A stretch of 64,000 bases of DNA, from the NCBI RefSeq assembly GCF_018138715.1, contig NZ_JAGSHX010000006.1, positions 6,014,001-6,078,000 on the forward strand. Reading direction: 5' to 3'. The position numbers and the translations under genes were made by a program. This DNA is from Streptomyces asiaticus (GTDB taxonomy: Bacteria > Actinomycetota > Actinomycetes > Streptomycetales > Streptomycetaceae). Each line of letters opens with the position of its first letter. Position 1 is the stretch's first letter. Below, piece by piece: positions 1,402-59,816 of this stretch. A model generated the notes under the pieces. It was not told the DNA's origin. It searched no databases and saw only the letters and a list, made by a program, of their open reading frames with translations.

Positions 1402-2472
1402 ATGTCCGCCACGACGACGGCCCAGCGCAGCGACCAGCCGGGCCGGATCATGTCCGGCGAGATGGCCGAGCAGCCCGCCGTGCTGCGCCGCATCCTCGAC
1501 CAGGGCGCCCCGAGGATCCGCGAGGTAGCGGAGCGGATCGCCGCCCGCAACCCGCGCTTCGTCCTGCTCACCGCCCGGGGCACCTCGGACAACGCGGCGC
1601 TGTACGCCAAGTACCTGCTCGAGGTCCTGCTCGGCAAGCCGTGCGGGCTGACCTCCATGTCCACCACCACCGCGTACGGCGCCCAGCCTGACCTCACCGA
1701 CGTCCTGGTGATCACCGTCAGCCAGTCCGGTGGCTCCCCCGACCTGGTGGCCTCCACCGAGGCCGCCCGCGCGGCCGGTGCGATCACCCTCGCGGTGACC
1801 AACAACGCCGACTCGCCGCTCGCGGCCGTCTCCGAATTCCACATCGACGTCCTGGCCGGGCCGGAGAAGGCGCTGCCCGCGACCAAGACCTACACCGCCG
1901 AACTGCTCGCCCTCTACCTCTTCGTGGAGGGGCTGCGCGGCGGCGACGGCGCGGCCGCCAAGGTGCTGCCCGACCTCGCCCAGCAGATCCTCGACCGCCA
2001 GGACGAGGTCCGGCTGCTCGCGGCGCGCTACCGCTTCGCCGAGCGGATGGTCCTCACCTCCCGGGGCTACGGCTACCCGACCGCCAAGGAAGCCGCCCTG
2101 AAGCTGATGGAGACCAGCTACATCCCGGCGCTCTCCTACTCCGGCGCCGATCTGCTGCACGGCCCGCTGGCCATGGTCGACAACATCTCGCCGGTGATCG
2201 CGATCGTCACCGAGGGCAAGGGCGGCCAGGCGCTCCAGCCGGTCCTGGAGCGGCTGCGCGGCCGGGGCGCGGACCTCGTCGTCATCGGGAGCGCGTCGGA
2301 GGTGGAGCGGGCCTCGGCGGGGTTCGCCCTGCCGACGGACGGCGTCGCCGAGGAGGTCCAGCCCATCCTGGAGATCCTGCCGCTCCAGATGCTGGCGTAC
2401 GAGGTGACGATCGCGCGCGGGCAGGACCCGGACGCGCCGCGGGCGCTGGCGAAGGTGACGGAGACCCGCTGA
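1402..2472 (+). CDS. SIS-domain protein, GlmS-like isomerase or GlcN-6-P deaminase
   Basis: This 356-residue protein carries two sugar-isomerase (SIS) domains. The first is seen at LLTARGTSDNAALYAK and the second around YSGADLLHGPLAMVDN. It resembles the isomerase half of glucosamine-6-phosphate synthase but lacks the N-terminal glutaminase domain. Such proteins act as glucosamine-6-phosphate deaminases (NagB-II type) or related aldose-ketose isomerases, so the likely substrate is glucosamine-6-phosphate released by the upstream hexosaminidase pathway. The exact reaction is inferred. A GGAGG ribosome binding site lies ten bases before the ATG. The 3' end is duplicated past its stop codon (2467-2519). 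Confidence 0.88.
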   Translation: MSATTTAQRSDQPGRIMSGEMAEQPAVLRRILDQGAPRIREVAERIAARNPRFVLLTARGTSDNAALYAKYLLEVLLGKPCGLTSMSTTTAYGAQPDLTDVLVITVSQSGGSPDLVASTEAARAAGAITLAVTNNADSPLAAVSEFHIDVLAGPEKALPATKTYTAELLALYLFVEGLRGGDGAAAKVLPDLAQQILDRQDEVRLLAARYRFAERMVLTSRGYGYPTAKEAALKLMETSYIPALSYSGADLLHGPLAMVDNISPVIAIVTEGKGGQALQPVLERLRGRGADLVVIGSASEVERASAGFALPTDGVAEEVQPILEILPLQMLAYEVTIARGQDPDAPRALAKVTETR

Positions 2473-2519
2473 GCCTTGCGGCGGGGCCCACTGAGCCCTG
2501 CGGCGGAGACCCGCTGAGA
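2467..2519 (+). repeat. Stop-codon-anchored tandem repeat, 23-bp units
   Basis: Two 23-bp units (2467-2489 and 2490-2512) plus a 7-bp partial unit begin inside the last codons of the SIS gene. Each carries the CTGAG that contains the stop. The gene's final GAGACCCGCTGAG (2461-2473) recurs at 2507-2519. Confidence 0.85.
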
Positions 2520-2533
2520 CACACAGAAAAGGA

Positions 2534-2565
2534 GGCTCCCGCGGCCTTCGAGAGGCGCGGGAGCC
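2534..2565 (+). terminator. Hairpin terminator after the SIS gene
   Basis: The stem GGCTCCCGCG / CGCGGGAGCC (2534-2543 with 2556-2565) has a short loop that pairs further. It lies 60 bases after the SIS gene. There is no T-tract, as is usual in Streptomyces. The rest of the gap to 2823 holds only the DasR-type site. Confidence 0.7.
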
Positions 2566-2747
2566 ATGTGTAACACCCGCGGGCCGCGGCGCCAGGGCGG
2601 GACCCTCAACCCGCCCGGCACCGCAGCCCGGAGTTGCGTCGGCCCAGCGGCCGACCTGAGGACTCCCGGGCGGTCAGGGCAGAGCGCTCCGGGTTCCTCG
2701 ATCCGCCCTCCTGTGCGGGGAGAGCGGAAGATCGCAGTGCTCGATAT

Positions 2748-2763
2748 TCTGGACTAGACCACT
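2748..2763 (+). promoter_or_regulatory. DasR-responsive element (dre)-like site
   Basis: TCTGGACTAGACCACT matches the known DasR operator ACTGGTCTAGACCACT at 14 of 16 positions. It lies 60 bp before the sensor kinase start and just downstream of the amino-sugar genes. DasR is the GlcN-6-P-responsive GntR regulator of Streptomyces. Binding here is inferred. Confidence 0.6.
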
Positions 2764-2823
2764 GCTGTCTGTCCACGCTTATGCGCGAATAGGCTAATCC
2801 ACCGGTGAGGGTAGGCTCACAAC

Positions 2824-4302
2824 GTGCCCTCCATGAACGACCTCGTACGCCAGCACACCGCACTCGACGATTCCGATCTCGAGTGGCTCCACCTGCTGGT
2901 CTCGGAGTGGCAGCTGCTCTCCGACCTCTCGTTCGCCGATCTTGTGCTGTGGGTCCCCACCAGCGACGGCACCCGGTATGTCTCCGTGGCCCAGATGCGG
3001 CCGAACACCGGGCCCACCTCCTACCAGGACGACATGGTCGGCCATCTCGTCCCCCGTGGCCGCCGCCCCATGCTGGACGCCGCCCTGGACGAGGGCCGGA
3101 TCGTCCGGGAGGGCGACCCCGAGTGGCGCGAGGAGGTGCCGGTCCGGGTGGAGTCCATCCCGGTCCGGCGGGAGAGCCGGGTCCTCGGCGTGATCGCGCG
3201 GAACACCAATCTGCTGACCGTACGGACCCCCAGCCGGCTGGAGCTCACCTATCTCCAGAGCGCGTCCGACCTCGCCCAGATGATCGCCGCGGGATCGTTT
3301 CCGTTCCCCAATCAGCAGGTCGACATGGACGCCTCACCGCGCGCGGGCGACGGGCTGATCCGGCTCGACGCGGACGGGGTGGTCCAGTACGCGAGCCCCA
3401 ACGCGCTCTCCGCGTACCACCGGCTGGGCCTCGCCGCCGATCTCGTCGGCCACCACCTGGGCAAGACCACCGCCGAACTAGCCCCGGTGCGCGGCCCGGT
3501 GGACGAGGCGCTGGTCAAACTGGCCAGCGGCTGGGCGCCCCGGGAGTTCGAGGTCGAGGGCGGCGACGGGGTCATCCAGCTGCGGGCCATTCCGCTCAAG
3601 CCCAAGGGGCTGCACATCGGCTCGCTGGTGCTGCTGCGGGACGTCACGGAACTGCGTCGCCGCGAGCGCGAGTTGATCACCAAGGACGCCACCATCCGGG
3701 AGATCCACCACCGGGTGAAGAACAACCTCCAGACGGTGGCGGCCCTGTTGCGGCTCCAGGCCCGCCGCATGGACTCGGAGCAGGGGCGGGAGGCGCTCAA
3801 CGAGGCGGTGCGCAGGGTCGGCTCGATCGCGATCGTCCATGAGACCCTCTCGCAGAACCTCGACGAGCGGGTCGAGTTCGATGACATAGCCGACCGGGTG
3901 CTGGCGATGGTGGCCGAGATATCGCCCGGGAAGGTGACCGGCCGCCGCACCGGGCGGTTCGGCATCCTCGACGCCGAGGTGGCCACCCCGCTGTCCATGG
4001 TCCTCACCGAGGTGCTCCAGAACGCGCTGGAGCACGGCTTCGGACCGGGGGAGCAGGGCACGGTCGAGGTCTCGGCGGTGCGCGGGGGCAGCGGTGAGGA
4101 GAGCCGGCTGTCGGTGGTCGTCCAGGACGACGGGCGCGGGCTGCCCGAGGGGTTCGACCCCCAGCGGGCCGGAAACCTCGGGCTTCAGATCGTCCGCACC
4201 CTGGTGGAGGGGGAGCTGGGCGGGACGTTCGACATGGTGCCCGCCCCGGAGCGCGGCACCCGGGTGATGCTGGACTTCCCGGTGGGTGCGGAGAAGCACT
4301 GA
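2824..4302 (+). CDS. Cytosolic sensor histidine kinase, PdtaS-like (GAF-PAS-HisKA_2-HATPase)
   Basis: This 492-residue soluble kinase has no membrane segment. An N-terminal GAF-like region (about 1-150) and a PAS-like region (about 175-285) precede a HisKA_2 dimerisation box, EIHHRVKNNLQTVAALLRLQ, with the phosphorylated His near residue 297. The ATPase N-box ALEHGFGP is near 400, DDGRGLPEGF near 435 and GNLGLQIV near 452. This layout matches mycobacterial PdtaS, whose partner PdtaR is an ANTAR-type RNA-binding regulator; no such partner is encoded here. The GTG start at 2824 is followed by an in-frame ATG four codons later. A DasR-like site lies upstream, which is unusual for this family and would tie the kinase to amino-sugar supply. 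Confidence 0.92.
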   Translation: MPSMNDLVRQHTALDDSDLEWLHLLVSEWQLLSDLSFADLVLWVPTSDGTRYVSVAQMRPNTGPTSYQDDMVGHLVPRGRRPMLDAALDEGRIVREGDPEWREEVPVRVESIPVRRESRVLGVIARNTNLLTVRTPSRLELTYLQSASDLAQMIAAGSFPFPNQQVDMDASPRAGDGLIRLDADGVVQYASPNALSAYHRLGLAADLVGHHLGKTTAELAPVRGPVDEALVKLASGWAPREFEVEGGDGVIQLRAIPLKPKGLHIGSLVLLRDVTELRRRERELITKDATIREIHHRVKNNLQTVAALLRLQARRMDSEQGREALNEAVRRVGSIAIVHETLSQNLDERVEFDDIADRVLAMVAEISPGKVTGRRTGRFGILDAEVATPLSMVLTEVLQNALEHGFGPGEQGTVEVSAVRGGSGEESRLSVVVQDDGRGLPEGFDPQRAGNLGLQIVRTLVEGELGGTFDMVPAPERGTRVMLDFPVGAEKH

Positions 4303-4343
4303 GCGCGTTGCGAGTCCGTGAGCAACCTGTTACCGGAAAGCAC

Positions 4344-4374
4344 TGAGCCCCGGACCCATCTGGTCCGGGGCTCA
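4344..4374. terminator. Bidirectional hairpin terminator
   Basis: A perfect 13-bp stem (TGAGCCCCGGACC / GGTCCGGGGCTCA) with a 5-base loop lies between the convergent kinase and wblE genes and could stop both transcripts. An 11-base copy of the kinase gene's end (AAGCACTGAGC, 4294-4304) recurs at the stem base (4338-4348). Confidence 0.8.
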
Positions 4375-6627: not shown

Positions 6628-7061
6628 CGGCGGGCTGCTCCCCGCCCCGCTCCTCCCCGAACTGGGGCTCCGCCCCAGACCCCGCTCCTCAATCGCCGGA
6701 GGGGCTGGAAGGCGGGGCTCCGCCCCAGGCCCCGCTCCTCAAACGTTGGGGGGCTGGGAGGCTGGGCTCTGCCCTAAGCAGGTCAGAGGAAGTCCGCTAC
6801 GGTTCGGGCAGCGCCCCGAAGGGGCGCGGGGAACTGCGCGACCAGCCACGACGGCACCGCAGCCGGCCGACGACCCATCGCGACACTTCCCGCGGAGCGC
6901 TTAGGCCCCGGGTCGGGGCCCCGGCCCCCTTCCCGCGGTATCGATATGCGGCTCCGCCGCGTGGCAGGGGCTCCGGCCCAAGTCCAGGGGTCCAGGGGCG
7001 GAGCCCCTGCCGCGCGGCGGAGCCGCATGTCGGGTGCTTCGGGAAGGGGCGGGGAGGGGAA
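6628..7061. repeat. Modular GC-rich repeat region with a long hairpin
   Basis: This gene-free stretch contains several parts. Two GGGGCTCCGCCCC mini-hairpins (from about 6664) are each followed by a CCCCGCTCCTCAA-type linker. A repeat core, CGCGACCAGCCACGACGGC (6837-6855), recurs at 35065 and, inverted, at 28185. A 30-bp inverted repeat (6946-6975 with 6999-7028, one mismatch) forms a long hairpin. A G-tract terminus at 7040-7061 is identical to those ending the arrays at 14216 and 19681. Confidence 0.85.
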
Positions 7062-9333: not shown

Positions 9334-9383
9334 CATCTCACCCCACGATGAGCTGATCCATCTCACCCCACGATGAGCTGATC
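9334..9383 (-). repeat. Perfect 25-bp tandem duplication across a stop codon
   Basis: Two identical 25-bp units (9334-9358 and 9359-9383) lie head to tail. On the minus strand each encodes D-Q-L-I-V-G-stop, so the end of the zinc-finger gene, including its stop, is copied immediately downstream. Confidence 0.95.
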
Positions 9384-9626
9384 GACGAAGCACCAGCGCC
9401 AGTCCTCACCCTCCTCGAAGCTGCGCATCACCGGATGGCCGGTCTCCTCGAAGTGGCGGGTGGTGTGCTGGTACGGCGAGGAGTCGCAGCAGCCCACATG
9501 GCCGCACACCAGACACTTCCGCAGCTGGACGGGGTGGCTGCCGACCGCCAGGCATTCGGGACAGGTGTCGGACCGCGGCTCCGGTTCGGGACGCGGCAGT
9601 GCGGGAACATGCGGGCACTCGTTCAT
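9363..9626 (-). CDS. UBP-type zinc finger protein
   Basis: This 87-residue protein is almost entirely one UBP-type zinc finger. It has CPECLAVG, then CLVCGHVGCCDSS, then HTTRHFEETGHPVMRSF, which carry the conserved Cys and His ligands. In eukaryotes this fold binds the ubiquitin C-terminus. In actinobacteria such free-standing copies are common and their role is not known. The last six codons are duplicated past the stop. Confidence 0.88.
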   Translation of the reverse strand: MNECPHVPALPRPEPEPRSDTCPECLAVGSHPVQLRKCLVCGHVGCCDSSPYQHTTRHFEETGHPVMRSFEEGEDWRWCFVDQLIVG

Positions 9627-11314: not shown

Positions 11315-11923
11315 GCCCTGGCCCTCTTCGCGCCGCCTGCCGTGCCCGTGCCGGCGCCGGCGCCGGCGCCCGTACCCGGACCGGCGCCCGTGCCCGCGCC
11401 CGTACCCGGACCGGCGCTAGGGGGTGTCCGGCGGATCGTGCCGCCTGCGGTGGGATGTTCCCCTCCCCGCCCCTTCCCTCAACTGGGGCTTCGCCCCAAG
11501 GCCCCGCTCCTCAAGTGCCGGAGGGGCTGGATGGCGGGGCTTCGCCCCAAGGCCCCGCTCCTCAAGTGCCGGAGGGGCTGGATGGCGGGGCTTCGCCCCA
11601 AGGCCCCGCTCCTCAAGTGCCGGAGGGGCTGGATGGCGGGGCTTCGCCCCAAGGCCCCGCTCCTCAAGTGCCGGAGGGGCTGGATGGCGGGACTCCGCCC
11701 CAAGGCCCCGCTCCTCAAACTCCCCCAGCTACCGCTGGGAGGTGCCCCCTGGAGGGGCTGGAAGGTGGGGCTCCGTCCCAGGTCCCGCTCCTCAAGCTCC
11801 CCCAGCTGCCGCTGGGAGGTGCCGCCCGGAGGGGCTGGAAGGCCGGGCTTCGCCCCAGATCCCGGGGTCTGGGGCGAAGCCCCGCCATGCGGCGGACACT
11901 CCGTAGGTGAGCGTCCTACTGTC
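11315..11923. repeat. Repeat array with perfect 51-bp tandem units
   Basis: After the antiporter come a GC-rich Pro/Ala-codon-like repeat (about 11341-11416), the G/C-tract terminus (11458-11478) and a tandem array. GGGGCTTCGCCCC hairpins start at 11485, 11536, 11587 and 11638, exactly 51 bp apart, with a decayed fifth unit at 11689 and further diverged units to about 11870. Flanking GTGTCCGGCGG (about 11424) and GCGGCGGACAC (about 11890) form an outer inverted pair. No gene is supported here; the open frames are by-products of the 51-bp (17-codon) period. Confidence 0.9.
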
Positions 11924-13597: not shown

Positions 13598-14281
13598 GGG
13601 CGTCGGGTGGGCCCTTGCCGCCCGCGGCGGGCTGTTCCCCTCCCCGCCCCTTCCCGAAACTGGAGCTCCGCCCCAGACCCCGAAACTGGAGCTCCGCCCC
13701 AGACCCCGAAACTGGAGCTCCGCCCCGGGCCCCGGGTCGGGGCTTCGCCCCAGGGCCTGGACCGGGGTTCCGCCCCGGACCCTGGATCGGGGTTCCGCCC
13801 CGGGCTCCGGATCAAGGCTCTGCCCCGGGCCCCGAAACTGGGGTTCCGCCCTGGGCCTTGGATCGGGGCTCTGCCCCGGGCTCCGGATCGGGGCTCTGCC
13901 CCCGGCCCCGAAACTGGGGTTCCGCCCTGGGCCTTGGATCGGGGCTCTGCCCCGGGCTCCGGATCGGGGTTCCGCACCGGGCCCCGAAACTGGGGCTTCG
14001 CCCCAGGCCTTGGATCGGGGTTCCGCCCCAGGGCCTGCACCGGGGCTCCGCCCTCAGACCCCGGACCGGGGCTCCGCTCCAGGCCCTGCACCGGGGCTCC
14101 GCCCTCAGACCCCGGACCGGGGCTCCGCCCCTTCCCGCGCCGTCGATATGCGGCCTTGCCGCGTGGCGGGGGCTCCGCCCCAAGGCTCGGGGTCCAGGGG
14201 CGGAGCCTCTGGTATCGGGAAGGGGCGGGGAGGGGAAAGCCTCGATATGCGGCCACCGCGTGATCCGCCGGACACCACGTA
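13598..14281. repeat. Hairpin array bounded by perfect 22-bp inverted termini
   Basis: About 20 copies of a GGGGxTxCGCCCC-type mini-hairpin alternate with linkers such as CCCCGAAACTG, CCTGGATC and CCGGATC. The termini TTCCCCTCCCCGCCCCTTCC.. (13635-13656) and its exact complement (14216-14237) face inward. A 76-bp sub-block is duplicated (AAACTG at 13835 and 13911). A long-hairpin module (TATGCGGCC.., about 14146-14205) sits next to the right end. Outside lies ATCCGCCGGACACC (about 14265). No gene is supported between 13598 and 14463. Confidence 0.92.
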
Positions 14282-17018: not shown

Positions 17019-17116
17019 GTGGCTCAGGAGAGCCGACTCAGGGCAATCGACTCAGGGCAGTCGGTTGGGGACAGTCGGTTCGGGACAGTCGGTTCGGGAC
17101 AGTCGTTTCAGGACAG
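17019..17116 (-). repeat. Stop-anchored tandem repeat, seven 14-bp units
   Basis: Read on the minus strand, the acid phosphatase gene's final CTGTCC-TGA begins a series of seven 14-bp units of the type CTGTCC[T/C]GAACCGA. They decay with distance from the gene. Confidence 0.9.
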
Positions 17117-17815
17117 CTGGCCGTCGTAGTCCGGGAGCTTGAAGGACTTCTCGGCGTGGCCACCGCTGATGTCGGTGGGGCTGTTGCCGATGTTGGCGAT
17201 GATCGTGTAGCCGTTCTTCTCGATCTCCGCCCGCTTGGCGGTCTTGTACTCCGCCACGTCCTGGAAGAGGTCCGGCAGATGGCGTACGTACAGACCGGCG
17301 ACCGAATAGCCGACCTTCTCCAGGTTGTACTCGGTCGGCAGGTAGATGATGCCGGGGCGCGCGGTGACGAAGAAGATGGCCACACCGCGGTCGTGGGCGT
17401 ACTGGGCGAGCTTCAGCACCGGCCCGACGGCGGGCTGGGGGTAGCTGAAGCCGAAGTCCGTCTCCAGCGAGGTGTTGTCGATGTCCAGGACGATGGCCTG
17501 CTTCTCGCCCGAGGGGTCGGCGGTGCGCTCCTCGATGTACGGGCGGGCCTGCTCGTCGATGATGGCGCGAACATCACGCTGCCAGGTCTCGTAGTCGACC
17601 TCCTCGGCGGCGGTGGTGGCGCTCGACGGCGCCGCCGTGGCTGCCGCGGCCGCCGTGATGGCGGTGAAGTCGCTGGTGCCGGGCGTGGCGCTGGTGCCGC
17701 TGGTGCCGGGCGTGGCGGCGGTCGCCGTGGTGGCCGTTCCGCCGACGCCGATGGCGAGGGCGACGACCACCGTCGTCATGCCGAGCCGCCGTGATCGCAC
17801 GCGTCCTGCTGTCAT
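17108..17815 (-). CDS. Secreted HAD-family acid phosphatase (class B/IIIB type)
   Basis: This 235-residue protein has an N-terminal signal peptide: Arg-rich start, then MTTVVVALAIGVGG, with cleavage near ATAA. An Ala/Thr/Gly/Ser-rich mature N-terminus follows. HAD motif I is VLDIDNTSLETDFGF, with the Asp-x-Asp-x-Thr pattern in which the first Asp is the nucleophile. Motif II is FFVTARPG. The conserved C-terminal part includes TIIANIGNSPTDISGGHAEK. These enzymes release phosphate from organic esters outside the cell. An in-frame GAAGGAAG site precedes ATG 17815. The 3' end is followed by seven 14-bp copies of the stop region. Confidence 0.92.
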   Translation of the reverse strand: MTAGRVRSRRLGMTTVVVALAIGVGGTATTATAATPGTSGTSATPGTSDFTAITAAAAATAAPSSATTAAEEVDYETWQRDVRAIIDEQARPYIEERTADPSGEKQAIVLDIDNTSLETDFGFSYPQPAVGPVLKLAQYAHDRGVAIFFVTARPGIIYLPTEYNLEKVGYSVAGLYVRHLPDLFQDVAEYKTAKRAEIEKNGYTIIANIGNSPTDISGGHAEKSFKLPDYDGQLS

Positions 17816-19148: not shown

Positions 19149-19834
19149 GGGGCGGCGGGTCGTGGCGCCTGCGGCGGCTGTTCCCCTCCCCGCCCCTTCC
19201 CGAAACTGGGGCTCCGCCCCAGACCCCGTGCCGGGGTTCCGCCCCGGGTCCTGTACCGGGGCTTCGCCCCAGGCCCCGGATCGGGGTTCCGCCCCGCGCC
19301 CTGTACCGGGGCTCTGCACCGGGTCCTGAACCGGGGTTCCGCCCTTGGGCCCTGTACCGGGGCTCTGCACCGGGTCCTGTACCGGGGCTTCGCCCCAGGC
19401 CCCGGATCGGGGTTCCGCCCCGCGCCCTGTACCGGGGCTCTGCACCGGGTCCTGTACCGGGGGTTCCGCCCTGGGCCCTGTACCGGGGCTCTGCTCCGGG
19501 TTCCGTGCCGGGGTTCCGCCCTGGGCCCTGTGCCGGGGTTCCGCCCCAGGCCCTGTACCGGGGCTCGGCCCCTTCCCGCTGCATCGCTATGCGGCTCCGC
19601 CGCGTGCTGGGGCTCCGCCCCAAGCCTCGGGGGCCAGGGGCGGAGCCCTTGCCGCGCGGCGGAGCCGCAAATGGACGTTGCGGGAAGGGGCGGGGAGGGG
19701 AAAACCTCGGTATGCGGCCGCCGGCCGCCGCGTGGTCCGCTGGACGCCCCGCAGGGAGCGCTCGGGGGAAGCAGCGGCGCTCAGACGCGGCTTGCTGAAT
19801 CAAGCAGGGGCATGGCCGAAGGTGGCGGCCGGGC
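19149..19834. repeat. Hairpin array bounded by perfect 22-bp inverted termini
   Basis: The same terminus as at 13635 occurs at 19181-19202, and its inverse at 19681-19702. Between them are about 17 units of the type CTGTACCGGGGxTxCGCCCC. A 126-bp block is repeated (ACCGGGGCTTCGCCCC at 19255 and 19381). The right end carries the ATGCGGCTCCGCCGCG / CGCGCGGCGGAGCCGCA long-hairpin module (about 19589-19671). No gene is supported. Confidence 0.92.
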
Positions 19835-21255: not shown

Positions 21256-22500
21256 GTGGAGCTCGAGGTGAGGCACCTCCGTGCACTGTGCGCCATAGCC
21301 GACACCGGCAGCCTACGGAAGGCGGCGCGGCAACTGGGCATGACCCAGCCGTCCTTGACGACCCAGCTCCGGCGGATCGAGAACACCATCGGCGGCCGGC
21401 TGTTCTCGCGGGAGGTCACCGGCAGTCGGCCGACCCCGCTGGGGCGGTCCGTGCTGTGCCGCGCCCGGTCGATCGTGGCCGAGATGAACGCCCTCGTCGA
21501 CGAGGTCCGGCTGGAGGCGGGGCAGACCGCAGACGCCCGGCTGCGCATCGGCAGCACGGGCAGCCGGGCCGTGGTCGGCTGGCTGCGCAGGCTCCGCGCC
21601 CGCTATCCGGACGCGGACACCACCATCCACATCGACGTCTCCGCCAACGCGCTGCTTCAGATGGTCGCCGCGAACCAGCTGGACGTCGCCTTCGTCCACG
21701 AGGTCGAGGGCGCGCCGCTGCGGGTGCCCGAGGGCGTGGAGCGCCGGGTGCTCGTGGAGCGGGAGCCGCAGTTCGTGGCGCTGGCCGAAACCCATCCGGC
21801 CGCCGCGCGGCCCGTGGTGCTGCTCGCCGACCTCGCCGCCGACCAGTGGATGGTGGACCCCAGTGTGGACGGCGAGGGCCCCGGGCTGCGCAGGGTGCTG
21901 GCTGCCGCGGGGCTCAATCCGAGGGTGGTCTACGGGGACTATCTGACCGCCGCCGACCTGGTCGCCTCGGGCGAGGTGGTCACCCCCTGCCAGCCCACCG
22001 CGCGGTCCCGCCAGGGCGTGGCGGTCCGCCCGCTGCACGGGGATCCGCTGACGGTCCGGCTGTTCCTGGCCTCGCGGGCGGTCCCGGCGGCGGCCCGTAG
22101 CGGCGCTGACGGATCCGCTCCGGGCGCGGTGGCCCGTACCGGTGGCACCGAACTCGTCCCGGACGCGGTGGCCCGTACCGGTGCCGCCGAACCCGTCCTG
22201 GACGCGGTGGCCGGTGTGCCCATCGGCGTCGACGCCACGGCGCCCGGTGTGCCCATCGGCGTCGACGCCACGGCGCCCGGTGCCCCCATCGGCGTCGACG
22301 CCCCGGCGTCCGGTGCGTCCCTCGACGTGGACGCCCTCTTCGGCGACCTGGCGGACGCGTACTTCGAGATCGCCTGGGCGAGCGTCGCGTACCGCCAGTG
22401 GCTGGTCCGCAACGAGAGCCCGCTGCTGCGCTTCCAGGAGTCCCCGACCCCCGACGAGCTCGACATCCTGGGGCTCGCCGGTCCCGCCGAGGTCTCGTAG
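21256..22500 (+). CDS. LysR-family regulator of the adjacent snapalysin gene
   Basis: This 414-residue protein has an N-terminal winged helix (LRALCAIADTGSLRKAARQL and TQPSLTTQLRRIENTIGGRL) followed by an effector-binding domain. It is about 100 residues longer than normal LysR proteins. After about residue 285 there is a low-complexity insert with repeats of AVARTG and of GVPIGVDATAP (three copies). An 80-residue C-terminal block (FGDLADAYFEIAWASVAYRQ) follows. GTG at 21256 is the start that begins the conserved fold. The stop codon is followed by five 14-bp tandem units that repeat it. Its likely role is activation of snpA. Confidence 0.9.
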   Translation: MELEVRHLRALCAIADTGSLRKAARQLGMTQPSLTTQLRRIENTIGGRLFSREVTGSRPTPLGRSVLCRARSIVAEMNALVDEVRLEAGQTADARLRIGSTGSRAVVGWLRRLRARYPDADTTIHIDVSANALLQMVAANQLDVAFVHEVEGAPLRVPEGVERRVLVEREPQFVALAETHPAAARPVVLLADLAADQWMVDPSVDGEGPGLRRVLAAAGLNPRVVYGDYLTAADLVASGEVVTPCQPTARSRQGVAVRPLHGDPLTVRLFLASRAVPAAARSGADGSAPGAVARTGGTELVPDAVARTGAAEPVLDAVAGVPIGVDATAPGVPIGVDATAPGAPIGVDAPASGASLDVDALFGDLADAYFEIAWASVAYRQWLVRNESPLLRFQESPTPDELDILGLAGPAEVS

Positions 22501-22567
22501 CCCCGAACTCGTAGCCCCGAACGCGTAGTCCCGAACGCGTAGTCCCGAACTCGTAACCCCGAAGGTG
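22498..22567 (+). repeat. Stop-anchored tandem repeat, five 14-bp units
   Basis: Starting exactly at the TAG stop of the LysR gene, five units of TAG[C/T]CCCGAACTCG lie head to tail. Each begins with a stop codon (TAG four times, then TAA). Because 14 is not a multiple of three, the stops fall in all three frames. Confidence 0.95.
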
Positions 22568-32828: not shown

Positions 32829-32937
32829 TGCGCTGTCCGGCCCGTGCGCTGTCCGGCGGGCGAGCTGCCCGGCGGGCGAGCGGGGTCACACCGTGGTGCG
32901 GTTCCGTGGGGTCGCCCCGCGGCCTAAGGTCGGGATC

Positions 32938-33900
32938 ATGTTCGCTGCCTATGCCGCACGTATCGACCGTGACCAGCCGCTGAGCGGCCTCGAACTGGGG
33001 GAGCGCCCCGAGCCGGAGGCCCGGCCGGGCTGGACCACCGTGAACGTCAAGGCCGCCTCGCTCAACCACCACGACCTGTGGTCGCTGCGCGGTGTGGGCC
33101 TCGGCGAGGAGTCGCTTCCGATGATCCTCGGCTGTGACGCGGCCGGGATCGACGAGGACGGCAACGAGGTCGTCCTCCACTCCGTCATCGGCCAGAGCGG
33201 ACACGGCGTCGGCCCGAAGGAGCCCCGCTCCATCCTCACCGAGCGCTACCAGGGCACCTTCGCCGAGAAGGTGACCGTCCCCAGCTGGAATGTGCTGCCC
33301 AAGCCCAAGGAGCTCTCCTTCGAGGAGGCCGCCTGTCTGCCCACGGCCTGGCTGACCGCGTACCGCATGCTGTTCACCAACGCGGGGGTGCGCCCCGGCG
33401 ACAGCGTCCTGGTCCAGGGCGCCGGGGGCGGTGTGGCCACCGCCGCGATCGTGCTGGGCGCGGCCGCCGGGCTGCGGGTGCTGGCCACCAGCCGTGACGA
33501 GGCCAAGCGGGCCCGCGCCGTCGAGCTGGGCGCCGAGGGCGCGTACGAGCCGGGGGAGCGGCTGCCGCGCCGGGTGGACGCCGTGATCGAGACGGTGGGC
33601 GCCGCGACCTGGTCGCATTCGGTCAAGTCCCTCAAGCCCGGCGGCACCCTGGTGATTTCGGGCGCCACCAGCGGCCCCAACCCGAAGGCCGCCGAGCTCA
33701 ACCGGATCTTCTTCCTGGAGCTGAAGGTCGTCGGCTCCACGATGGGCGGGAAGGACGAGCTGGAGGACCTGCTGAGCTTCTGCGCCGCGCGCGGGGTACG
33801 GCCGGTGATCGATTCGGTGCTGCCGCTGGACCGGGCCCGCGAGGGGTTCGAGAAGATGGCGGGCGGCGATCTCTTCGGCAAGGTCGTACTGACGGTCTGA
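32938..33900 (+). CDS. MDR-family zinc-free quinone oxidoreductase-like dehydrogenase
   Basis: This 320-residue medium-chain reductase has a GroES-like N-terminus (VKAASLNHHDLWSLRGVG) and the NADPH loop VLVQGAGGGVATAAIVLG. The structural zinc Cys cluster is absent. QOR-type enzymes reduce quinones or enoyl groups with NADPH. ATG at 32938 is chosen because the family similarity begins there. The stop is the first of six in-frame TGA codons in an 18-bp tandem repeat. Confidence 0.92.
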   Translation: MFAAYAARIDRDQPLSGLELGERPEPEARPGWTTVNVKAASLNHHDLWSLRGVGLGEESLPMILGCDAAGIDEDGNEVVLHSVIGQSGHGVGPKEPRSILTERYQGTFAEKVTVPSWNVLPKPKELSFEEAACLPTAWLTAYRMLFTNAGVRPGDSVLVQGAGGGVATAAIVLGAAAGLRVLATSRDEAKRARAVELGAEGAYEPGERLPRRVDAVIETVGAATWSHSVKSLKPGGTLVISGATSGPNPKAAELNRIFFLELKVVGSTMGGKDELEDLLSFCAARGVRPVIDSVLPLDRAREGFEKMAGGDLFGKVVLTV

Positions 33901-33990
33901 GTCGTGCCGGCGGTCTGAGTCGTGCCGGCGGTCTGAGCCGCGCCGGCGGTCTGAGTCGTACTGGCGGTCTGAGTCGTGCCGACGGTCTGA
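33893..33990 (+). repeat. Stop-anchored tandem repeat, five 18-bp units
   Basis: Five units of CGGTCTGAGTCGTGCCGG plus an 8-bp partial unit start within the last codons of the reductase gene. The unit is 18 bp, so six TGA codons fall in the same frame. Unit four still spells the coding end GTCGTACTG-xCG-GTC-TGA. Confidence 0.96.
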
Positions 33991-34984: not shown

Positions 34985-35989
34985 AGGTCAAGCGGCCAGG
35001 GGCGCGGGGATGTGCCGATATACGGCTCCGCATACCGGCTCCGCATACGGCTCCGCCGCGTGGGCGCGACCAGCCACGACGGCGCCGCATCGGTGCTTTC
35101 CCCTCCCCGCCCCTTCCCGTTACCAGGGGCTTCGCCCCTGGACCCCGGATCCCGGACCCCGGGCGCCGGACCCCGGGCGCCGGACCTCTGGGCGCCGGGC
35201 CCCGGACCTTGGGCGCCGGGCCCCGGGCCCCGGGCCCCGGGCCCTGGACCTCGGGCGCCGGACCTTGGGCGCCGGACCCCGGGCCCCGGGCCCTGGACCT
35301 CGGGCGCCGGACCTCTGGGCGCCGGGCCCTGGACCCCGGGCTCCGGACCTTGGGCCCCGGACCCCGACCTCAGGCCCCCGGCCCCCGGACCTCAGGCCCC
35401 CGGGCGGCGGACCCCGGACCCCGGAGCCCCGGCTCCGGACCTTGGGCTGCGGACCTCGGGCCCCCGGACCTCAGGCCCCCGGACCTCGGGCCCCGGGCCC
35501 TGGACCTCGGGCGCCGGACCTTGGGCGCCGGACCCCGGGCCCCGGGCCCTGGACCTCGGGCGCCGGACCTCTGGGCGCCGGGCCCTGGACCCCGGGCTCC
35601 GGACCTTGGGCCCCGGACCCCGACCTCAGGCCCCCGGCCCCCGGACCTCAGGCCCCCGGGCGGCGGACCCCGGACCCCGGAGCCCCGGCTCCGGACCTTG
35701 GGCTGCGGACCTCGGGCCCCCGGACCTCGGGCCCCCGGACCTCGGGCCCCCGGACCTCGGGCCCCCGGACCTCGGGCCCCGGATCCCGGACCCCAGGGCG
35801 GGGAGCGGAGCAGCACCGTCCCGGGCGGCGCGATCTGCCGGATATCCCTGGGCGCGGGTAGCCACTGCCCCCGGCATCGGTGTGCGGCTTCGCCCCAGAC
35901 GCCGGGGTCTGGGGCGGAGCCCCAGTTTCGGGAAGGGGCGGGTAGGGGAACAGCCCGCCGCAGGCGTCACCCCAACCCGGACAGCAGCC
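34985..35989. repeat. Large GC-rich array with inverted termini and a 256-bp tandem duplication
   Basis: The left terminus (35098-35119) equals the one at 13635. The right terminus (35929-35950) is its inverse with one mismatch. Inside, the units are 14-16 bp of the type GGACCTCGGGCCCC[C]. A block of 256 bp at 35241-35496 is repeated at 35497-35752, and five 15-bp CCCCCGGACCTCGGG-type units close it. Left flank: TACGGCTCCGCATA-type repeats and the dispersed core at 35065-35083. No gene is supported between 34856 and 35989. Confidence 0.92.
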
Positions 35990-37120
35990 CTACGCCCGCT
36001 TCCCCCGCAGCAGCGCCGTGATCCGCGCCGCGGCCGCCCCCAGGTGGTGGCGGGCCTCGGCCAGCTGGGCGTCCGTCACCCCGTGGTCGCGGGCCGCGTC
36101 GCGGACGTCGTCCCGGAACCGATCGAGCAGCCGCTCCAGATCGCGGGCGGGGGCGCCGGAGGGGGTGAAGTCCCCGGCCCACTCGGGCTCCCGCACCCCA
36201 GTCGCGCCACCGCCGCCACCGCCCCCGCCCCCGGCGCTCGGCTTCTCCTGCCCGCCGCCGCCCCCGGCGCTCGGCTTCTCCTCCCCGCCACCGCCCTCCG
36301 GCTCCGGCTTCGTCACGTCCACCCGCTCCACCGTGACATCCGGCCCGGACGCCTCCTCGTCCCAGCCCCAGCCCCAGTCCGAGCGCGAGGTGCCCGGCCG
36401 GGAGATCCGGCCCATACCGCGTGACACCTCGGCCAGCCCCTCGCGCACCGCCCGCTGCCAGTCGCCCGCCCGGATGTGCTCCTGCGTCTGCTCCTGGACC
36501 CGCCGGGCGATCCGCTGGACCTCCTCGCGCGCGAAGTCCTGCGCGTCCCTGGCCTGCTTACGGGCGCGCTGGGCGTCCTGCCGGGCCCGCCGGCTCTCCT
36601 CCTTGGCCCGGCGCGCCTGCTCCTTCCACTCCTCCTTCGCGCGCCGCATCTCCTCCTTCGCCTGCCGCCAGGTCTCCTTGTCGCCCCACGCCCCCTCCCA
36701 CGGGGCCTGCTTGTCCTGGGCGCCGCCGGAGGCGCGGGCCTGCTGGGCCGCCTCGCGCATCTCGCGCCGCAGATCGCTCGCGGAGCCGCGGACGTCCTCC
36801 CGGATCTCGGCGGCGAGTTCGGCGACCGACTCGCGGATCTCCAGCTCCAGATCGGCCAGCTCACCGCTGCGGTCGGCCAGTTCGGCGCGCCCGGCGTCGG
36901 TGATGGAGTAGACCTTGCGGCCGCCCTCGGTGGTGTGGGTGACCAGCCCCTCGGCCTCCAGCTTGGCCAGCCGCGGATAGACGGTGCCGGCCGAGGGCGC
37001 GTACAGCCCCTGGAACCGCTCCTCCAGCAGCCGGATGACCTCATAGCCGTGGCGCGGCGCCTCGTCGAGCAGCTTGAGCAGATACAGGCGCAGTCGGCCG
37101 TGGGCGAATACGGGGGGCAT
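35990..37120 (-). CDS. PadR-family regulator with long coiled-coil tail
   Basis: This 376-residue protein has an N-terminal PadR winged helix (HGRLRLYLLKLLDEAPRHGY, EVIRLLEERFQGLYAPSAGT, VYPRLAKLEAEGLVTHTTEG). It is followed by about 130 residues of highly charged Lys/Arg/Glu coiled coil (about 105-235), a Gly-rich linker (GGGGGGGGG) and a short helical C-terminal domain. Most PadR proteins are 110-180 residues, so the tail is unusual. The ATG shares one base with the stop of the upstream DUF4097 gene (TGATG), so the two are coupled. Confidence 0.92.
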   Translation of the reverse strand: MPPVFAHGRLRLYLLKLLDEAPRHGYEVIRLLEERFQGLYAPSAGTVYPRLAKLEAEGLVTHTTEGGRKVYSITDAGRAELADRSGELADLELEIRESVAELAAEIREDVRGSASDLRREMREAAQQARASGGAQDKQAPWEGAWGDKETWRQAKEEMRRAKEEWKEQARRAKEESRRARQDAQRARKQARDAQDFAREEVQRIARRVQEQTQEHIRAGDWQRAVREGLAEVSRGMGRISRPGTSRSDWGWGWDEEASGPDVTVERVDVTKPEPEGGGGEEKPSAGGGGGQEKPSAGGGGGGGGGATGVREPEWAGDFTPSGAPARDLERLLDRFRDDVRDAARDHGVTDAQLAEARHHLGAAAARITALLRGKRA

Positions 37121-38362: not shown

Positions 38363-42257
<3,895 letters not shown>

Positions 42258-42294: not shown

Positions 42295-42693
42295 ATGGCA
42301 TCACCGAACATCGAGGCCATCCAGGCCTGCTACGCGGGTTTCCGCGACCGTGACATCGAGGGGATCCTCTCGGGCATGCACCCCGATGTGGAGTGGGTGC
42401 ATCCGGAGGGGATGGCCAAGTACGGGCTCGGCGGCACCAAGCTGGGCCATGCGGGCATCAAGGAGTTCCTCGCCCGGGTGCCGACCGTGCTGGGCGGGAT
42501 GAGGCTCGCGCCGAAGGAGTTCATCGAACAGGGCGACCGGGTCGTGGTGTTCGGCACCCGCGAGGTGACCTCGCTGAGCGGGAGGACCGTGACGCTGGAC
42601 TTCGTCCACTCGTGGACGATGCGGGACGGCAGGGCGACGAGGATGGAGGACATCTTCGACACGGTGGCGTTCCATGAACTGATCGAGAGCTGA
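42295..42693 (+). CDS. SnoaL-like (NTF2-fold) protein
   Basis: This 132-residue protein has the SnoaL/ketosteroid-isomerase fold: IQACYAGFRDRDIEGILSGM, HPDVEWVHPEG, KLGHAGIKEFLARVP and FVHSWTMRDGRATRMEDIFD. In polyketide pathways such proteins act as cyclases or hydroxylases. GAGGAG lies before ATG 42295; a GTG at 42283 overlaps that site and is less likely. It probably belongs to the same transcript as the two genes before it and is closed by a terminator. Confidence 0.88.
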   Translation: MASPNIEAIQACYAGFRDRDIEGILSGMHPDVEWVHPEGMAKYGLGGTKLGHAGIKEFLARVPTVLGGMRLAPKEFIEQGDRVVVFGTREVTSLSGRTVTLDFVHSWTMRDGRATRMEDIFDTVAFHELIES

Positions 42694-42790: not shown

Positions 42791-42820
42791 CTCAGACCCT
42801 ACGGACTCAGACCGTACGGA
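42791..42820 (-). repeat. Stop-anchored 15-bp tandem duplication
   Basis: CTCAGACCCTACGGA and CTCAGACCGTACGGA lie head to tail across the nitroreductase stop. On the minus strand both copies carry TCTGAG, the gene's end. Confidence 0.85.
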
Positions 42821-43427
42821 AGACCTCCTCGTACTCCAGGCGCGGCAGCCGCCCCATCCAGGCGTCCGGACCCGGCTTGCCGATGTTGACCACACAGACC
42901 GCGGCGTGCCGCCCGTCCTCGAAGAACTCCTTGGAGACGGCCGCGTGGTCGAAGCCGATCATGGGCCCGGCGGCGAGCCCCGCGGCGCGCACACCCAGGA
43001 TGAAGTAGCCCACCTGGATCGCGGTGTTGAACCGCGCCGACCCCTCCCGGGCCTCGGGGTCGGCGAAGATCGCCTGCGGGTTCTCCATGAACGGCACCAG
43101 CCGCGGCAGCTCCTCATGGAAGTCCAGGTCCGCGGCGAGCACCGCCACCAGCGGGGCCTTGGCCGTCTTCTCCTGGTTCCGCCCCGTCATATGCGCCACC
43201 AGCCGGGCGCGCGCCTCCTCCGAGCGCACCAGCACCACCCGCAGCGGCTGCTGGTTCAGCGAGGTGGGGGCGTACTTGACCAGTTCGTGGATCGCGCGGA
43301 CCTGTTCGTCCGTCACCGGCTCATCGGTGAAGGTGTTGGCCGTACGGGCCTCCAGGAACAGCTGCCGCTGCGCCTCCGGCGCCAGGGTGAGAGGGCGCAG
43401 GGCCTCGCTGTTCTCCGGTGCGCTCAT
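42807..43427 (-). CDS. Nitroreductase family FMN protein (RutE/HadB-like)
   Basis: This 206-residue protein has the nitroreductase fold with FMN-binding KYAPTSLNQQPLRVVLVRSE and AIQVGYFILGVRAAGLAAGP. It resembles the malonic semialdehyde reductase RutE subgroup. It reduces quinones, nitro groups or small aldehydes with NAD(P)H. AAGGAG lies before ATG 43427. It is divergent from a TetR gene with a perfect palindrome in the gap. If the A-T-TE enzyme makes a quinone, this reductase is a candidate for detoxifying or reducing it. Confidence 0.91.
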   Translation of the reverse strand: MSAPENSEALRPLTLAPEAQRQLFLEARTANTFTDEPVTDEQVRAIHELVKYAPTSLNQQPLRVVLVRSEEARARLVAHMTGRNQEKTAKAPLVAVLAADLDFHEELPRLVPFMENPQAIFADPEAREGSARFNTAIQVGYFILGVRAAGLAAGPMIGFDHAAVSKEFFEDGRHAAVCVVNIGKPGPDAWMGRLPRLEYEEVFRTV

Positions 43428-43574: not shown

Positions 43575-44258
43575 TTGCGGACGGACAGCGGTCCCCGGCG
43601 CGGCGCGGCGGGACGGCCCGTGGGCCCCCAGCCCGCCAAGCGGCAGGCGATATTGGAGGCGGCGGTGGCCGTCTTCCTGCGCGAGGGGTACGACCGGGCG
43701 AGCGTGGACGTCATCGCGGACGAGGCCCGCGTGTCCAAACAGACCGTCTACAACCACTTCGGCGACAAGGAGCGGCTGTTCATCGCCGCCGTCGAGGAGG
43801 AGCGGGAGCGGGTGGCGGCCGGTTTCGCCGCCGGTTCCCCGTACACCCTCGGGCCGGACGGCGCCGGGCCACCCGAGGCGTACGACTCCGGCGACGCCCG
43901 CACCGCGCTGCTCGCCTTCGGCCACCGGGTGCTCGCCGTACTGCTCGACGCGCGGGCCTCCGCGCTGCGCCGCCTGGTCATCGCCGAGGTCGCCCGCCAC
44001 CCCTCGCTGCGCCCCGCGTGTGCGGAGGGGGAGCCCCAGCAGCTGGTGAAGTACCTCGCCGAGATGCTCGGCCGGCGCACCGGCAGCGGTGAGCTGAGCG
44101 TGCCGGATCCGGCCACCGCGGCCCGCCAGTTCGTGGCCCTGATCATCCAACAGGGGCTCTACCAGTCGATGTACGGCACCCGCCCGCTCGCCGAGGACGA
44201 GGCCACGGCCGTCTGCGAGAGCGCCGCCGATCTGCTCGTCCGTGCGTACGGCCCATGA
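43575..44258 (+). CDS. TetR-family regulator
   Basis: This 227-residue protein has a TetR helix-turn-helix (REGYDRASVDVIADEARVSK, QTVYNHFGDKERLFIAAVEE) and a TetR_C AefR-like C-terminal domain (LRRLVIAEVARHPSLRPACA). TTG at 43575 is supported by AGGAGG eight bases before it. It is divergent from the nitroreductase gene. Its end is duplicated as a 17-bp unit past the stop. Confidence 0.92.
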   Translation: MRTDSGPRRGAAGRPVGPQPAKRQAILEAAVAVFLREGYDRASVDVIADEARVSKQTVYNHFGDKERLFIAAVEEERERVAAGFAAGSPYTLGPDGAGPPEAYDSGDARTALLAFGHRVLAVLLDARASALRRLVIAEVARHPSLRPACAEGEPQQLVKYLAEMLGRRTGSGELSVPDPATAARQFVALIIQQGLYQSMYGTRPLAEDEATAVCESAADLLVRAYGP

Positions 44259-44279
44259 AGCCGTACCGCCCATGAAGCC
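44246..44279 (+). repeat. Stop-anchored 17-bp tandem duplication
   Basis: GTACGGCCCATGAAGCC and GTACCGCCCATGAAGCC lie head to tail. The first contains the TetR gene's last codons and TGA stop. Confidence 0.9.
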
Positions 44280-45113: not shown

Positions 45114-45185
45114 GGGGTGGCCGGGGCCGCGCAGCGCTGTGGAACGCGCGGCCCTCGGAGACTGTAGCCCTGAGACGACGCGGCC

Positions 45186-45312
45186 CTCAGGGGCCGTAGC
45201 CCTCAGACGTCGTCGTCCTCAGAGGCCGTAGCCCTCAGACGACGTAGCCCTCAGACGTCGTCGTCCTCAGAGGCCGTAGCCCTCAGACGACGTAGCCCTC
45301 AGACGTCGTCGT
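45186..45312 (-). repeat. Stop-anchored perfect 48-bp tandem duplication
   Basis: Two identical 48-bp units (45217-45264 and 45265-45312) and a 31-bp partial unit (45186-45216) begin inside the last codons of the small gene at 45299. On the minus strand each unit carries GACGACGACGTC-TGA and two further CTGAGGGCTACG blocks. Confidence 0.95.
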
Positions 45313-45481
45313 CCTCCTCGTCGAGCCGGGCCAGCCAGGTCGCCAGCCGCTCCACCGGGACCTCGAAGTCCGGGTTCAGGTCGACGAACGCCCGCAGCTG
45401 CTCGGCGAGCCACTCGAAGGTGACCTCCTCATCGCCGCGTCGCTGCTCCAGCTCCTCGATACCGCGATCGGTGAAGTACAA
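45299..45481 (-). CDS. DUF6104-family small acidic protein
   Basis: This 60-residue protein reads LYFTDRGIEELEQRRGDEEV, then TFEWLAEQLRAFVDLNPDFE and ends in a run of acidic residues. It matches the small, highly conserved DUF6104 proteins of Streptomyces, whose role is unknown. The TTG at 45481 with GGAG upstream is preferred over a longer frame, because the family begins at [M]YFTDRG. The stop region is tandemly duplicated downstream. Confidence 0.8.
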   Translation of the reverse strand: MYFTDRGIEELEQRRGDEEVTFEWLAEQLRAFVDLNPDFEVPVERLATWLARLDEEDDDV

Positions 45482-45567
45482 GGGTCGCTCCGGAAGGGGT
45501 GGTGTGGATCTACCCGCCCAGGATATGCGGCCCCGCACTCCGGTGAGCGACCCGAGGGGCGCCGGGG

Positions 45568-45598
45568 TTGACGTTGACGCGGGCGTCAATGTTTAGGG
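45568..45598 (+). promoter_or_regulatory. MerR-type promoter/operator of the SDR gene
   Basis: A -35-like TTGACG (45568-45573) and a -10-like TTAGGG (45593-45598) are 19 bp apart. The spacer region holds the dyad ACGTTGACG-CGGG-CGTCAATGT (one mismatch). The long spacer with a dyad is the MerR hallmark. Transcription would start almost at the ATG (45608), giving a leaderless message. Confidence 0.65.
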
Positions 45599-56531: not shown

Positions 56532-56552
56532 TTGCCTGCCGAAGGGGAGATC

Positions 56553-58970
<2,418 letters not shown>

Positions 58971-59105
58971 CGGACGCTGCCGGTAGCGGCGGCCCGGGGC
59001 CCTGTGTCGAACGGGGTTCCGGGCCACGCGTGACGTCTCGGGCGTGCGTATCGTTGGACTGTCCATCGCGTGCACAACGAGTGCGCGGTGGGGAGGAGCG
59101 GCACG

Positions 59106-59696
59106 ATGACCGTCACAGAGACTGACAGGATCGAGATGGCCGACAGCGATGCCCGCAGCCTGGATGAGATGTTCGACCGGCTGGAGCGGTTCCAGGTCCC
59201 CGAAGGCTACAAGGTCGAGGTTGTCAGGGGGGCCGTCTTCATGTCGCCGCAGCGGGACGTCCATTGGTACATCATCCGCAGGATCGTGCGGGCTCTCGAA
59301 GATCGCTTCGGGATGAACGTGAACGTGCTGTCGGACGTCCGCATTGACTTCCCCGGGTACATGAACGGCTTCTGCCCGGATGTCGTCAAGGTCGCGCAGG
59401 GTGCCGAGAAGACCCCGCAGGGCCGTTGGTGCTGTGAGGACATCGAATTCGTCGCCGAGGTGATCTCAAGGGATACGGCGGCGAACGACTACGGTCCCAA
59501 GAAGGCGGCCTATGCCCAGGCCGAGGTCCCCGTCTATCTGATCGCTGACCCGTATACGGGGAAGTGCCGCCTTCACACCGAGCCCAAGGACGGCGCGTAC
59601 CACGTCGAGAGCACCATCGACTTCGGCGTGCCGGTCGACCTGACCGGCACGGTCGTCGACCTCACCCTCGCCACCGACGAGTTCCCTCGCGACTGA
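59106..59696 (+). CDS. Uma2-family (DUF820) PD-(D/E)XK endonuclease-like protein
   Basis: This 196-residue protein has the Uma2 fold: YKVEVVRGAVFMSPQRDVHW, INFPG-type RIDFPGYMNGFCPDVVKV and EFVAEVISRDTAANDYGPKK, with Asp and Glu-x-[x]-Ser of the nuclease core. KKAAYAQAEVPVYLIADPYT closes it. These proteins are numerous in Streptomyces and Cyanobacteria and their role is unknown. GAGGAG lies before ATG 59106. It appears to stand alone. Confidence 0.92.
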   Translation: MTVTETDRIEMADSDARSLDEMFDRLERFQVPEGYKVEVVRGAVFMSPQRDVHWYIIRRIVRALEDRFGMNVNVLSDVRIDFPGYMNGFCPDVVKVAQGAEKTPQGRWCCEDIEFVAEVISRDTAANDYGPKKAAYAQAEVPVYLIADPYTGKCRLHTEPKDGAYHVESTIDFGVPVDLTGTVVDLTLATDEFPRD

Positions 59697-59766
59697 CCCC
59701 GCCGCGTTCGAGCTGCCGGCCTCCGGCGTGATAGGTGAGCGGCCGGGCCCTTCCGTGTGCGCGAGC

Positions 59767-59816
59767 GGCGCTACGCCCGCCCACCAGGACGCGTACGTAA
59801 GAGGCGCTACGCCCGC
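59767..59816 (-). repeat. Spaced duplication of a gene end
   Basis: GGCGCTACGCCCGC at 59803-59816, which contains the TetR gene's stop (TAG on the minus strand), recurs at 59767-59780. Confidence 0.75.

Follow-up and report, generated by a model that had tools for sequence, protein, structure and literature searches.

Short gene-specific tandem duplications at the stop codons of Streptomyces genes: probable products of a recurrent slippage-type process

In a 64-kb stretch of the 11.88-Mb genome of Streptomyces asiaticus (the window; G000:C6:6014001-6078000), genes unrelated to one another end in short tandem arrays that lie over the stop codon. Our comparison of these stop arrays with the gene ends of relatives and of more distant bacteria suggests that they are probably the products of a recurrent, slippage-type mutation process concentrated after Streptomyces genes, for which the stop codon is a boundary of tolerance. 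A stronger version, in which the process is directed to 3' ends and linked to the place where transcription or translation stops, so that the first 100 bp after the stop would be a genus-biased duplication hot spot several-fold above other non-coding DNA, is put forward more tentatively, at somewhat less than even chances. Arrays called by Tandem Repeats Finder (TRF) lie over the stop in eight of the 60 genes called in the window (Table 1). The first-pass annotation had listed ten gene ends with stop-anchored tandem repeats; checked by direct reading of the sequence and by a TRF run, eight are such arrays, the ninth starts at its stop, and the tenth (59767-59816) is a spaced copy. By Pfam the genes at the ten sites are unrelated (SIS, zf-UBP, HAD phosphatase, LysR, dehydrogenase, AMP-binding/thioesterase, nitroreductase, two TetR and DUF6104). 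An array entered as seven 14-bp units at 17019-17116 is present, although TRF gives about six (rows 17058-17116, 14 bp x4.2, and 17034-17063, x2.1), and the supposed weak tandem case at 4294-4348 is a gene-end copy that is spaced rather than tandem, and old, since all five relatives have it.

Table 1. Repeats at gene ends of the window and the state of the same gene ends in relatives
Position	Strand	Gene	Feature	Basis	Relatives
2459..2518	+	SIS-domain gene 1402-2472	22-23 bp x2.7 array over stop (2470-2472)	TRF; Pfam PF01380	absent from 5/5 orthologues
4294..4348	+	gene 2824-4302	spaced copy of gene end	sequence reading, relatives	gene-end copy at same place in 5/5
9334..9383	-	zf-UBP gene 9363-9626	25 bp x2.0 perfect duplication over stop	TRF; Pfam PF02148	two orthologues found: G188 with a different 18-bp duplication at stop, G093 without any
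17034..17116	-	acid-phosphatase-like gene 17108-17779 (HAD phosphatase)	14 bp array over stop	TRF; Pfam PF03767	absent from 5/5 orthologues
22494..22563	+	LysR regulator gene 21256-22500	14 bp x5 array over stop	TRF; Pfam	x5.0 in G000, x2.5 in G395, none in 4 other orthologues
33893..33990	+	zinc-type dehydrogenase gene 32893-33900	18 bp x5.4 array over stop	TRF; Pfam	absent from 5/5 clade orthologues (exact FGKVVLTV end in 4)
41197..41322	+	AMP-binding/PP-binding/thioesterase gene 38591-41209	about 23 bp x5 array around/after stop (41207-41209)	TRF rows 41197-41322, 41211-41322; Pfam	related arrays in G079, G407, G188
42791..42820	-	nitroreductase gene 42807-43427	15 bp x2 over stop	TRF; Pfam	7-bp x5.6 array in G395, nothing in G079
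44245..44279	+	TetR regulator gene 43620-44258	17 bp x2.1 over stop	TRF; Pfam	one copy in 10/10, against two in window
45183..45316	-	DUF6104 gene 45299-45589	48 bp x2.8 array (16-bp sub-unit) over stop	TRF; Pfam PF19599	degenerate arrays in G079, G188
59767..59816	-	TetR regulator gene 59807-60385	two copies of a 14-mer with spacer at stop, no tandem array	sequence reading; Pfam	

The origin of the arrays is best seen by comparing orthologous gene ends in the window genome (G000) and its syntenic relatives G395, G079, G407, G188 and G093, a set that we call the clade and that was grouped by similarity, with no tree; by one conserved gene, the nearest named loci to the window belong to Streptomyces niphimycinicus, Streptomyces sp. 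S465 and S. antioxidans. The comparison, here and throughout between relatives rather than strains of one species, was made orthologue by orthologue, because aligning the syntenic segments in pairs with gaps, which gave 41 merged tandem events, a good number of them in coding sequence (CDS), was too imprecise in 3' gaps. At least one of the six genomes has an array at 23 of the 60 window gene ends, and at 14 of these 23 a single genome has it; altogether there are 34 array instances among 339 orthologous stops and two among as many starts. Nine stops have arrays in two or three genomes: at five of them the periods bear no relation to each other, two show equal periods and two near-multiples. 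Between G000 and G395, which are 93% identical, the array state differs at 10 of 56 orthologous stops; both have an array at two of the 56, one of these with different units. The C-terminal peptides are mostly, not always, conserved (G395 differs at 2 of the 23). In the case of the dehydrogenase, 29 relatives end in FGKVVLTV exactly (four) or in close variants of it (the rest), and none has the array of the window, while one (L122) has a 17-bp duplication of its own over the stop. Because C-termini are conserved in relatives without the array, the arrays arose from their own gene ends, as the first-pass annotation had proposed, and the combination of mostly conserved C-termini with mostly private arrays therefore speaks for recurrent de novo duplication. 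The duplications are mostly new, local and lineage-specific, with fast turnover, and some are old.

The window is rich in stop arrays yet unexceptional, since they are found at 42 of 626 stops sampled elsewhere in the genome, compared with 8 of 60 inside. In the whole G000 sample, 864 kb made up of the window and another 40 stretches of 20 kb, arrays with a TRF score of at least 50 and a period of at least 8 overlap 50 of 686 stops and only 7 starts, and dinucleotide shuffling of 422 3' gaps (a single shuffle, as in each such control) reduced the number of arrays from 146 to 4, so that the predicted enrichment at stops over both starts and shuffled gaps was borne out. Genes were called with a purpose-written codon-usage caller, which recovered 26 stops and 14 exact starts of 27 annotated CDS of a Streptomyces plasmid (L320; two cut rows omitted) and 26 stops and 25 starts of the first 28 CDS of an Escherichia coli table (L303; nested copA and later rows omitted); because of its start accuracy, start-side comparisons were rerun with starts at the most upstream start codon. 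Pooling the five relatives gives arrays at 44 of 699 stops and at 5 starts, some of these arrays being inherited in common. For other Streptomyces (G012, G005 and 74 loci) the figures are 47 of 1364 stops and 7 starts; the 74 loci were left from 80 after removal of six named as other genera (L036, L050, L064, L068, L081 and L097), in which 2 of 98 genes have an array at the stop and one at the start. Along the 10.1-Mb contig G000:C6, stop arrays are more frequent at 3-7.5 Mb (39 of 402 genes, a count that includes the window's own 8 of 60) than elsewhere (11 of 284; p 0.004, odds ratio 2.7). In gaps of 20-120 bp they are found in 2 of 126 tandem pairs and in 12 of 126 convergent pairs (p 0.01), a comparison in which the array itself lengthens the gap.

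Outside the genus the trait fades. No array was found at 210 stops of E. coli or at 221 of the Sinorhizobium meliloti pSymB replicon, and in further controls there are 3 in 308 stops of Nonomuraea (and 4 starts), 2 in 126 of the Rhodococcus RHA1 plasmid and 1 in 101 of genome G453. Two genomes from a different family within the same order have arrays at 8 of 175 (G038) and 4 of 163 stops (G045). Stop arrays are thus strong in Streptomyces chromosomes and weaker, but present, around them, which is not a simple effect of GC content, since Nonomuraea (71.4% GC) and G000 (71.3%) hardly differ in this respect. A Nonomuraea record (NZ_LT559118.1, Nonomuraea gerenzanensis, 11.85 Mb; L313-L316 and L323-L326) is filed as 'plasmid I', and its size fits a chromosome.

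The arrays are concentrated not only at the stop but in the DNA that follows it. After starts had been moved to the most upstream codon and a GC-rich dispersed repeat family left out, clade arrays number 110 in the 50,693 bp lying 0-100 bp after stops and 19 in 44,427 bp of non-coding DNA at least 200 bp from genes (5.1-fold, p 2.5e-14); for other Streptomyces there are 85 in 40,214 bp and 12 in 25,702 bp (4.5-fold, p 1.3e-8). The first-pass proposal that gene 3' ends are favoured is supported in this sense. In four other actinomycetes the same contrast (12 in 27,025 bp after stops, 13 in 43,479 bp at a distance) gives a ratio of 1.5 that is not significant (p 0.41). Within convergent gaps alone, the near-stop excess is 6.3-fold in the clade and 4.0-fold in other Streptomyces.

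The dispersed family consists of GC-rich GGGGCTCCGCCCC-type arrays with units of 25-126 bp, found in the window at 6664-6774, 11485-11864, 13665-14131 and 19208-19599, mostly in gaps adjoining genes, and it is distinct from the stop arrays because its units resemble one another. Between genes 34112-34855 and 35990-37120 the window further contains a 660-bp CCCCGGA-rich minisatellite (35136-35799), which also has longer periods, 50 and 256 bp. ARAGORN found no tRNA in the window. In G395, the orthologue of window gene 42295-42693 (assigned from its position in L197) has a CATCAC expansion near its start codon, absent from the window genome, which is a coding microsatellite at a gene start.

How much of this pattern requires a special process? 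Duplications could arise evenly along the genome, be removed in genes and promoters and survive only over stops or in 3' gaps, an explanation that is unlikely in our view yet the most serious competitor of recurrent slippage after genes. Such tolerance accounts for the shortage of arrays at starts and for their lack in CDS except as multiples of three: perfect duplications inside CDS are multiples of three in 61 of 61 cases in the clade and 52 of 54 in other Streptomyces, and those at clade stops are spread over the three frame classes (11, 7 and 7 of 25). A duplication that covers the stop and intrudes into the gene by less than one unit does not alter the protein, which already ends within the first copy. 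The density of array edges at clade stops (2.90/kb, compared with 1.38/kb at +30 to +199; p 3e-8) would by itself suggest a sharp anchor at the stop, but permutation with tolerated intrusion took away most of this signal, and in other Streptomyces the edge excess is 1.25-fold and not significant (p 0.11). Random placement of arrays inside the tolerated span (gaps of at most 600 bp, arrays without room to move omitted) predicts 60.3 stop overlaps for the clade, where 80 are observed (1.33-fold, p 0.0005), an excess found in tandem gaps (29.0 expected, 46 seen, p 0.0005) and not significant in convergent ones (31.4 and 34). The model comes close to the observed values in the 74-locus sample (25.8 and 30) and in G012 and G005 (8.3 and 10), neither difference being significant, although in the latter pair tandem gaps alone show 5 overlaps for 1.2 expected (p 0.003), and the two genomes of the other family show 10 for 5.2 (p 0.01). 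The stop is therefore mostly a boundary, with a modest excess that is clearest in tandem gaps, and the idea that it is an anchor in itself has weak support, given that tolerance already yields the greater part of the overlaps. In tandem gaps, arrays at the far end may also be made scarcer by the promoters of the following gene.

Tolerance alone, besides leaving these residual excesses, predicts distant non-coding DNA as dense in arrays as the zone after stops, whereas in Streptomyces it is 4.5-5 times sparser. Moreover, Nonomuraea has a similar rate of perfect duplications in CDS (56 per Mb, compared with 38-52 in Streptomyces) and fewer in 3' gaps (130 versus 208-485), which argues for a 3' bias beyond simple tolerance. 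In divergent gaps its rate is 370 per Mb (n=6), against 13-182 in Streptomyces, and as a separate observation its divergent gaps (6 duplications in 16,220 bp) are denser than its 3' gaps (8 in 61,316 bp), the reverse of Streptomyces. Gene ends are thus a hot spot to a greater degree than tolerance predicts.

The properties of the duplications point to slippage, as the first-pass annotation had suggested among other possibilities. Clade stop arrays have a median period of 19.5 and a median of 2.8 copies (n=90), inside the range of about 7-50 bp typical of minisatellite units, and their copy number differs between close relatives; in unit size, copy-number variation and microhomology they resemble the minisatellites made by slippage, or variable number tandem repeats (VNTR). 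Microhomology of at least 3 nt accompanies 72% of 39 two-copy perfect duplications in 3' gaps of the clade, a figure possibly inflated by decayed third copies although matches of at least 60% were excluded, and 52% of 25 in other Streptomyces, compared with 9% for duplications placed at random. Slipped mispairing fits because microhomology is in excess; for the same reason blunt end joining was not favoured, despite three Ku matches in G000, and it may account for duplications without microhomology.

We propose that slipped mispairing between short direct repeats would create duplications in head-to-tail order, usually 14-25 bp long, and that these may grow to several copies and later decay. 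In Streptomyces this process would be concentrated in about the first 100 bp after the gene, and a duplication reaching back into the gene would be kept only if its first copy still held the stop codon. Because the first copy must hold the stop, array edges would pile up within one unit of it while the protein stays unchanged. The copying step would be replication slippage, and something at the 3' ends of transcription units, such as the termination zone or ribosome-free RNA, could raise its rate. A strand-specific form of the conflict between transcription and replication that had also been suggested is not supported, as there is no leading- or lagging-strand bias (27 of 50 array stops are leading, compared with 347 of 636 others, with the origin placed at dnaA). 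Array stops show no difference in GC skew and no bias in stop type (TGA in 40 of 50 array genes, 480 of 636 others). Strong GC-rich hairpins (score at least 28, at most 200 nt from the stop) are found in 18% of clade 3' flanks and 30% of those of other Streptomyces, and the same score gives 3% of flanks for four other actinomycetes and 4% for E. coli. A hairpin acting as a barrier would fit at the level of the genus, but inside a given genome arrays are no more frequent next to hairpins, one of the negative associations being biased by masking.

Several observations weigh against this proposal. The stretch from the stop to the best hairpin has no significantly higher array density than the DNA further out (23 versus 14, p 0.14; 15 versus 19, p 0.73), so that hairpin position gave no sign of a direct link to the transcribed zone, and 21% of the 39 clade duplications and 20% of the 25 in other Streptomyces have no microhomology. 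When only gaps of at least 400 bp are considered, with the dispersed family dropped, the near-stop excess is gone from clade tandem gaps (4 in 8000 bp, 14 in 26,718 bp; 0.95-fold, p 1); it is 4.1-fold in clade convergent gaps (p 0.02) and, in other Streptomyces, 3.0-fold in tandem (p 0.04) and 2.8-fold in convergent gaps (p 0.14). Gap size is consequently a confounder that has not been fully removed. The taxonomic boundary is also imperfect: an actinomycete outside Streptomyces, G443, has arrays at 3 of 92 stops, and its 3' gaps contain perfect duplications at 248 per Mb (n=3), inside the Streptomyces range, which breaks the contrast drawn from Nonomuraea (G443 has 161 per Mb in CDS and 302, n=2, in divergent gaps, a sample too small to judge); a plasmid of Streptomyces anthocyanicus has none at 59 stops; and the proposal does not account for the low rate of Nonomuraea.

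Explanations by selection fare worse than tolerance. It is improbable that the arrays are selected as transcription terminators or as insulators between genes, even though array coverage in other Streptomyces is highest in convergent gaps (16.1%, compared with 4.6% in tandem and 2.2% in divergent ones), where arrays are also commoner in the absence of a hairpin (36 of 180 versus 11 of 130; p 0.006 in one test among several of this type). In clade convergent gaps there is no such relation (18 of 133 versus 32 of 227, p 1), the arrays have no common sequence and occur mostly in one species of six, and the extra RNA structure of intrinsic terminators is missing, the RNA after array-bearing stops being no more structured (z -1.04, n=50) than after others (-1.51, n=100; p 0.18). 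Still less probable is selection for reserve stop codons behind a leaky stop. The next in-frame stop is indeed nearer overall in array genes (median 16.5 versus 54.5 codons, p 0.001), but this is due to the units divisible by three (the other 28 arrays have a median of 44), and such units show none of the in-frame excess that fail-safe stops would require (37 of 90, p 0.12; 17 of 46, p 0.64; 22 of 50 in G000, a count without p value). The type of stop is irrelevant as well, and a published survey of eubacteria, as far as its available text goes, reports that compelling evidence for such selection is lacking (PMC6764699). That a dispersed or mobile repeat family targets gene ends is hardly credible, because, although the GGGGCTCCGCCCC-type family fills other gaps of the window, the near-stop excess persists after that family is dropped, the eight window arrays have 0-3 14-mer matches each in another 800 kb of the genome, and the stop arrays have no likeness beyond chance, with 3 of 1128 pairs among 48 arrays sharing a 12-mer and 3-5 pairs after shuffling. 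The mycobacterial interspersed repetitive units (MIRUs) have one common consensus; nothing of the kind unites the stop arrays, in which common 12-mers do not exceed chance, and their units are unrelated between genes just as the first-pass annotation had stated.

Its further statement that no element of this kind had been described was too strong. The published systems compared here were available as partial texts. Repeats of a GGGAATC heptamer (a G-quadruplex motif) in Xanthomonas and Nostoc are found for the most part on the sense strand at 0-50 bp from the stop, which some of them overlap, and are under-represented in genes and between divergent genes (PMC4692102, in the part available). 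They are like the stop arrays in being tandem and close to the stop (within 100 bp for ours), and unlike them in that one heptamer is common to all, whereas each Streptomyces array has its own unit derived from its own gene end. The TAACTGA direct repeats of Beggiatoaceae are likewise a single fixed sequence and, according to the excerpt available (PMC4679880), mostly oriented towards start codons; the common unit of both families is a trait that the stop arrays lack. Closer in behaviour are the tandem repeats of Borgs, described in the text examined (PMC9879509) as fast evolving and of independent origins, with units divisible by three throughout open reading frames and mostly not between genes, and with partial repeats at the flanks. 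The Streptomyces arrays share the fast evolution, the independent origins and the multiples of three within reading frames, whereas Borgs are archaeal extrachromosomal elements with perfect, A-enriched units, and that text reports no concentration at gene ends. The VNTR and MIRU-VNTR loci of Mycobacterium tuberculosis also resemble the stop arrays, being intergenic and variable in copy number between isolates, and the fpg repeats of this species run from 40 bp downstream of a stop to the following start codon; MIRUs differ in forming one dispersed family (PMC2734929, available sections). Short tandem repeats that arose de novo in a beta-lactamase gene, some bordered by direct repeats, have been ascribed to replication slippage, a likeness limited by their position within the coding region of one gene and by the lack of a link to gene ends in the portion consulted (PMC4169377). 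The term 'stop codon' is absent from the accessible text of a paper on prokaryote satellites (PMC6749651). Repeats of a single sequence near stops are therefore known; gene-specific duplications spanning the stop in Streptomyces, as a 3'-end hot spot at the level of the genus, were not found in the literature searched, which left most subscription papers outside.

If the 3'-end excess is mutational, bacteria would have a local bias in mutation that follows gene structure, changes 3' flanks fast and can be read in many genomes. Gene ends of Streptomyces would then serve as a natural assay of slippage close to where transcription units end, and as ready strain markers. Tolerance, too, explains the apparent anchoring of arrays at stop codons, which could be a trap for annotation and for searches of 3' regulatory elements.

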